In this document: positions 12,469-25,868 of the stretch, one piece after another | How the letters are laid out: each line of letters opens with the position of its first letter | How positions within the stretch are numbered: the stretch's first letter is position 1 | Assembly: GCA_034401795.1 (NCBI GenBank) | Contig: CM067370.1 | Location: 50,318,414 to 50,382,413 of the forward strand | From: Chaetoderma sp. LZ-2023a | Taxonomy: Eukaryota; Mollusca; Caudofoveata; Chaetodermatida; Chaetodermatidae | Length of the DNA: 64,000 nt | Reading direction: 5' to 3' | Notes under the pieces: model-generated | What the model was told of the DNA's origin: nothing | Databases searched by the model: none | The model's input: the letters and a program-made list of their open reading frames with translations, nothing else | Position numbers and translations under genes: made by a program

Positions 12469-25868
<13,400 letters not shown>

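Follow-up and report, generated by a model that had tools for sequence, protein, structure and literature searches.

The second aspartate of the ion-binding motif (D164 in NhaA) is reported to be shared by 94% of cation/proton antiporters (PMC6181914) and is called strictly conserved in NHA2 (PMC8850199, PMC12072577). The equivalent NhaA mutant, D164N, is described as showing no growth on salt, no transport, no Li+ binding, and no H+ release (PMC4810432). Also, simulations of bison NHA2 are reported to show no Na+ entry into the funnel when either Asp is neutral, and coordination of Na+ by the main chain of the broken TM5 stretch (PMC8850199). For human NHA2, a salt bridge between D278 and R432 is described, whereas the bison structure shows it broken (PMC12072577). 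Moreover, antiporters with an Asn-Asp (ND) motif are said to function with one motif carboxylate, and a Glu at E215 together with the Arg R432 is given as the animal-NHA pattern (PMC6181914). In mammals, SLC9C1 is listed with a TS motif and SLC9C2 with an IC motif (PMC10049371), and two reviews describe Drosophila Nha1, an SLC9B protein, as an H+/Cl- cotransporter for which a charge imbalance close to the ion site is suggested (PMC9174904, PMC9644288). In the portions of the literature searched, no report of Asp-Asn (DN) in an SLC9B protein was found.

The DNA analyzed here (the window) is a stretch of 64,000 nt from Chaetoderma sp. LZ-2023a (Mollusca; Caudofoveata; GCA_034401795.1, CM067370.1:50,318,414-50,382,413, forward strand; the contig is C12 below), which carries two tandem SLC9B genes, copy A and copy B, both on the + strand. 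In copy A, the codons GAT AAT (16965..16970, + strand) encode Asp-Asn at the positions of human SLC9B2 D278-D279, in the context AGT TTG GAT AAT GTC CTA (SLDNVL), and copy B has the same GAT AAT (51478..51483, + strand) inside SLDNIL, so that the Asp-Asn pair that an earlier note on this DNA had read in both copies is confirmed. A comparison of copy A with human SLC9B2 (PDB code: 7b4l; phmmer against PDB chains) aligns the motif free of gaps, with D on D278 and N on D279, and does not place the catalytic Asp elsewhere.

Judged by sequence, A and B are SLC9B (animal NHA) genes by descent. The whole core of copy A matches human NHA2 with an E value of 3e-74 over 380 amino acids (40.9% identity to human SLC9B2 over 372 columns), and the Pfam domain Na_H_Exchanger (PF00999) is found in it with an E value of 1.8e-15. 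The Glu at E215 and the Arg at position 8 (R432) of the animal-NHA pattern are present in A, B, and a third gene, C, described below, and an N-terminal exon matching TM-1/TM1 of NHA2 is found in B and C, with a presumed one for A. The KGIPT and FRLLTT segments, listed as kept in the earlier note, are present in both copies, the exon with FRLLTT of copy B lying beyond the window end. As the second Asp of the ion-binding pair is missing in A, B, and C, these genes are not filed here as Na+/H+ exchangers.

Within the window, ten exons make up copy A, the first starting at 12469 and the last reaching the stop at 25868. Their acceptors are AG and their donors, where an intron follows, GT; the frame is open over 1479 bases, one of which is borrowed from the preceding exon. 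The ten exons, on the + strand, are exon 1 of the core (12469..12556, from human residue 148 on, with AG/GT borders), exon 3 with the E215 equivalent (15598..15780), exon 4 with the TM5 helix break SAAAAIP and the TM6 segment SLDNVLAI (16847..17025), exon 5 (17739..17848), exon 6 (19384..19548), exon 6b (19926..20034), exon 7 with the equivalents of R432, W457, K460, and T462 (20865..21001), exon 7b (21463..21540), exon 7c with the last TM helix (22454..22523), and the last exon (25510..25868), which encodes a tail with four RRxS motifs and ends with the stop codon TAA. The four RRxS motifs are retained with similar spacing in the C-terminal tails of both A and B, and we take them to resemble protein kinase A sites. 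A candidate exon e2 of copy A (15385-15459) was dropped because conserved neighbours splice exon 1 straight to exon 3.

The presumed N-terminal exon of copy A lies at C12:50294058-50294252, 24 kb upstream of the window, with 86% identity to that of copy B over 65 residues, and we infer that it is spliced to exon 1 of copy A. Between the two lies a minisatellite of 27-bp units and about 27.5 kb (roughly C12:50303000-50330560, corresponding to window positions 1-12157 and the DNA upstream); its unit being a multiple of three, very long frames remain open. A partial tandem duplication is also seen in gene A, where a second copy of exon 1 at 12344-12420, 125 bp upstream, ends before the splice donor.

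For copy B, the N-terminal exon (44801..45560, + strand) runs from a putative ATG to a donor; it rests on an open frame and a match to the human NHA2 N-terminal probe, and contains the stretch matching TM-1/TM1 of the human protein. It is followed within the window, on the same strand, by four core exons: exon 1 (48478..48565), exon 3 (50365..50547), exon 4 with the TM5 break and the Asp-Asn of TM6 (51360..51538), and exon 5 (52681..52790). Six further exons were found past the window end (from C12:50382586 on), with frame and borders intact, which rules out that copy B is truncated, its later exons only being missing from the window. On these gene models, both A and B look like complete genes. 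By eye, three broken frames on the - strand of the window (36568-37146, 41544-42094, and 60912-61391) resemble remnants of LINE-type reverse transcriptases.

Own-genome searches, together with a search with the N-terminal exon (six matches at E up to 1), reveal at least six SLC9B genes, A to F, a count that is a lower bound because only the best candidates were scored. Gene C (C12:90.77 Mb, 40 Mb off, 46-48% identical) has all core exons and the N-terminal exon, and its motif is also Asp-Asn (GAC AAT). The earlier note had presented the substitution as a trait of two paralogues, which holds for A and B, but it is not limited to them, as the distant paralogue C carries it too. Since gene C has Asn at the same place, along with nearby substitutions common to A, B, and C, the Asp-Asn motif is explained neither by chance nor by a base error. 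Gene D (C14:20.16 Mb) has Asp-Asp, and genes E and F (C17:27.54 and 27.63 Mb) have Asn-Asp, the motif pattern of CPA1/NHE proteins, here found inside the SLC9B family. In addition, an isolated SLC9B exon 5 adjoining a run of N (C17:27593801-27595300, about 27.595 Mb) suggests a seventh, incompletely assembled SLC9B gene.

A comparison of A and B over nine exons (368 codons, the last exon left out) gives a dN/dS of 0.177, with a dS of 0.394 and a dN of 0.070. The ratio is low in most core exons and higher in the short exons 7b (0.54) and 7c (0.45). Between A and B there is purifying selection, not decay, and with frames and splice borders intact and a dN/dS of 0.18 in round figures, simple decay, against which the earlier note had argued, is very unlikely. 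Taken together with assembly or sequencing error, pseudogene decay is regarded as highly improbable: the partial tandem copy of exon 1 in A and the minisatellite before that exon would fit it, but the intact frames, the canonical borders, the low dN/dS, and an Asn codon at three loci speak against it.

In exon 4, the motif exon, dS is 0.105, whereas the other eight exons range from 0.27 to 0.73. Its synonymous differences occupy 4 of about 41 sites, versus 77 of about 224 elsewhere (Fisher p 0.0014, uncorrected, exon 4 being the lowest of nine). Gene conversion of exon 4 between A and B would be the simplest reading of this difference; alternatively, the low dS could come from an unusual constraint on synonymous sites. 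The introns flanking exon 4 are alike in A and B for about 17 bases before it and 9 after it, but this likeness is not special, given that 35 of 40 bases are alike before exon 7. As exon 4 is apparently gene-converted, A and B are not countable as two independent cases of Asp-Asn; the motif does stand in both, as the earlier note had it, but at exon 4 the two copies are probably not independent.

A tree of 14 rows (A to F, human and bison NHA2, and six bacterial relatives, the eukaryotic rows being taken from this genome and the PDB) groups A, B, and C together with a support of 99/97, the order of the animal groups being unresolved. Without the exon 4 columns (13 rows, the long-branched bacterial sequence L046 being dropped), the support for A, B, and C is 90/88, and D, E, and F lie with vertebrate NHA2 on the other side (80/82), with the fork drawn open. 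This hints that the split of the DN lineage may be older than, or about as old as, the divergence from the vertebrate lineage. A scan of bacterial and archaeal genomes with all six paralogues yielded no confirmed relative among 34 matched stretches, and a second scan with DD and ND rows yielded one among 120; in the phylum of this relative, three of nine genomes have a relative, its own genome counted. Also, a plasmid search gave 10 matching records, and sequences were taken for four of them. Asp-Asn is present in none of the seven bacterial sequences read, six having Asp-Asp and one, the cyanobacterial L045 (outside the alignment), Ser-Asp.

The ion site of the DN proteins was compared with reference rows consisting of the five other animal sequences (D, E, F, human, and bison) and six bacterial ones. 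All three DN rows depart from the reference at three of 43 reference-invariant columns (L176I, P246A, and D279N); the rows amount to two lineages, A and B being near-copies. At position 279, A, B, and C have Asn, against Asp in 11/11 other rows, and at position 246, in the TM5 helix break, they have Ala, against Pro in 11/11; by residue numbering, P246 would lie in or beside the broken TM5 stretch. In the same test, E plus F differ in one of 32 columns (D278N), human plus bison also in one of 32 (P307V), and D in one of 31 (M253I); seven of 37 columns are changed in A plus B alone (L181V, A243P, V244M, V248A, A273F, F401T, and G505A) and three of 33, one of them a gap, in C alone. Beside P246, A, B, and C share the substitutions V249A, V250I, and S252F, which no other animal row has; L256F, E309Q, and P398I are also common to the three. 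Kept in all three are E215, D278 (Asn in E and F), R432, W457, P459, K460, and T462. Hence the residue replaced is the one reported as essential and the remaining charged core is retained, in agreement with the earlier note. The only acidic gain common to A, B, and C is at position 483, outside the ion site, and the common acidic losses are at 264, 279, and 309; basic residues are gained in common at 178, 329, 486, and 488, and lost at 199.

We see an even chance that A, B, and C form an SLC9B subfamily with a remodelled ion site (D279N and P246A), which would not perform canonical D279-based Na+/H+ antiport and would probably be a carrier of altered coupling. The basis of this reading is the intact genes, the purifying selection between A and B, the grouping in the tree, the co-substitutions, and the absence of a new shared acid at the site. 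Asn279 would act like a permanently protonated Asp, and the competition of Na+ and H+ for the D279 carboxylate would be lost; D278 would stay as the salt-bridge partner of R432. The site would be one negative charge poorer, and whether it is neutral would depend on the protonation of K460, which was modelled as neutral in the reported bison NHA2 simulations (PMC8850199). Such a protein could be a cation carrier with D278 as its only motif carboxylate, or it could perform proton/anion transport as reported for fly Nha1. Against the loss of exchange, weak cation binding could persist through Asn, D278, and main-chain oxygens, and the effects of the NhaA mutant need not transfer to a site that is rebuilt elsewhere. 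The anion idea in particular has against it that purified bison NHA2 is reported to transport neither K+ nor Cl- (PMC8850199), that beetle NHA1 is described as an antiporter of cations and H+ (PMC10068851), and that, according to a review, the NHA1 and NHA2 of non-dipterans are no orthologues of the dipteran ones (PMC9644288).

It is possible, but not probable, that these are instead non-transporting SLC9B proteins, which would keep the fold and the dimer, carry no ions, and act as regulatory partners or as sensors, for instance in heterodimers with the DD and ND paralogues. The residue lost is described as essential in NhaA (PMC4810432) and as strictly conserved in NHA2 (PMC8850199, PMC12072577), no compensating acid is seen at the site, the tails of A and B carry their four RRxS motifs, and DD and ND paralogues are present in the same genome. 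However, A, B, and C retain E215, D278, R432, and K460, and dN/dS is low in most core exons, 7b and 7c being the higher ones. A carrier of altered coupling appears more likely than a pure scaffold, a preference that rests on the conserved charged core, which a scaffold could keep too.

It seems quite unlikely that these proteins still perform canonical Na+/H+ (or K+/H+) exchange, in which case D278 alone would serve as proton/cation site and DN would be a permuted ND motif. D278 and the charged network are kept, ND antiporters are reported to work with a single motif carboxylate (PMC6181914), and, judging from the ND paralogues E and F, SLC9B may tolerate a single carboxylate. Nonetheless, ND proteins keep the acid of the second position and DN proteins that of the first, NhaA D164N is described as dead and as binding no Li+ (PMC4810432), and D278 is reported to pair with R432 in human NHA2 (PMC12072577). 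Among the options of the earlier note, changed stoichiometry seems the least likely, because mammalian NHA2 is reported to be electroneutral (PMC8850199) and the residue lost is the main proton/cation site, not the proposed extra proton carrier; altered coupling and a non-transport role would be the two leading readings.

A broader proposal, which we regard as tentative and rather doubtful, is that the DN genes represent an old animal SLC9B subfamily, which would have split before or around the separation of vertebrate NHA2 and exchanged antiport for another mode (anion- or proton-coupled, or uncoupled cation transport) through the neutralized catalytic Asp and the reshaped TM5 helix break, all three motif states in this genome forming a natural mutational series. 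This proposal is weakened by a review stating that NHA paralogues arose mostly after species splits (PMC9644288). A, B, and C probably move ions in a way unlike the textbook model or do another job. A maintained subfamily without the second motif Asp, beside Asp-Asp and Asn-Asp relatives, is a natural test of the proton-carrying residue and of whether the exchanger fold can turn into another kind of carrier.

Finally, the DN proteins share with SLC9B2/NHA2 (human, PDB code: 7b4l; bison, PDB code: 7p1i) the fold family, the N-terminal exon, E215, R432, D278, W457, K460, and T462, but differ from it by Asn in place of D279, Ala in place of P246, V249A, V250I, S252F, L256F, E309Q, and P398I, and, in A and B, by the RRxS-rich C-tail. 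Like the electroneutral ND exchangers of the CPA1 type (NHE and NhaP) and the paralogues E and F, they have one carboxylate and one Asn; however, those proteins keep the second Asp whereas A, B, and C keep the first, and with this reversed order they do not belong to the ND class. SLC9C1 and SLC9C2 are likewise reported as natural losses of motif Asp in kept SLC9 genes and serve as precedents (PMC10049371), although they belong to another SLC9 subfamily and both of their motif positions are changed. Drosophila Nha1, likened here by description only, is likewise an invertebrate SLC9B protein with non-canonical transport reported; it shows that such transport has been claimed within SLC9B (PMC9174904, PMC9644288), and the DN subfamily could bear on that report of H+/Cl- cotransport.
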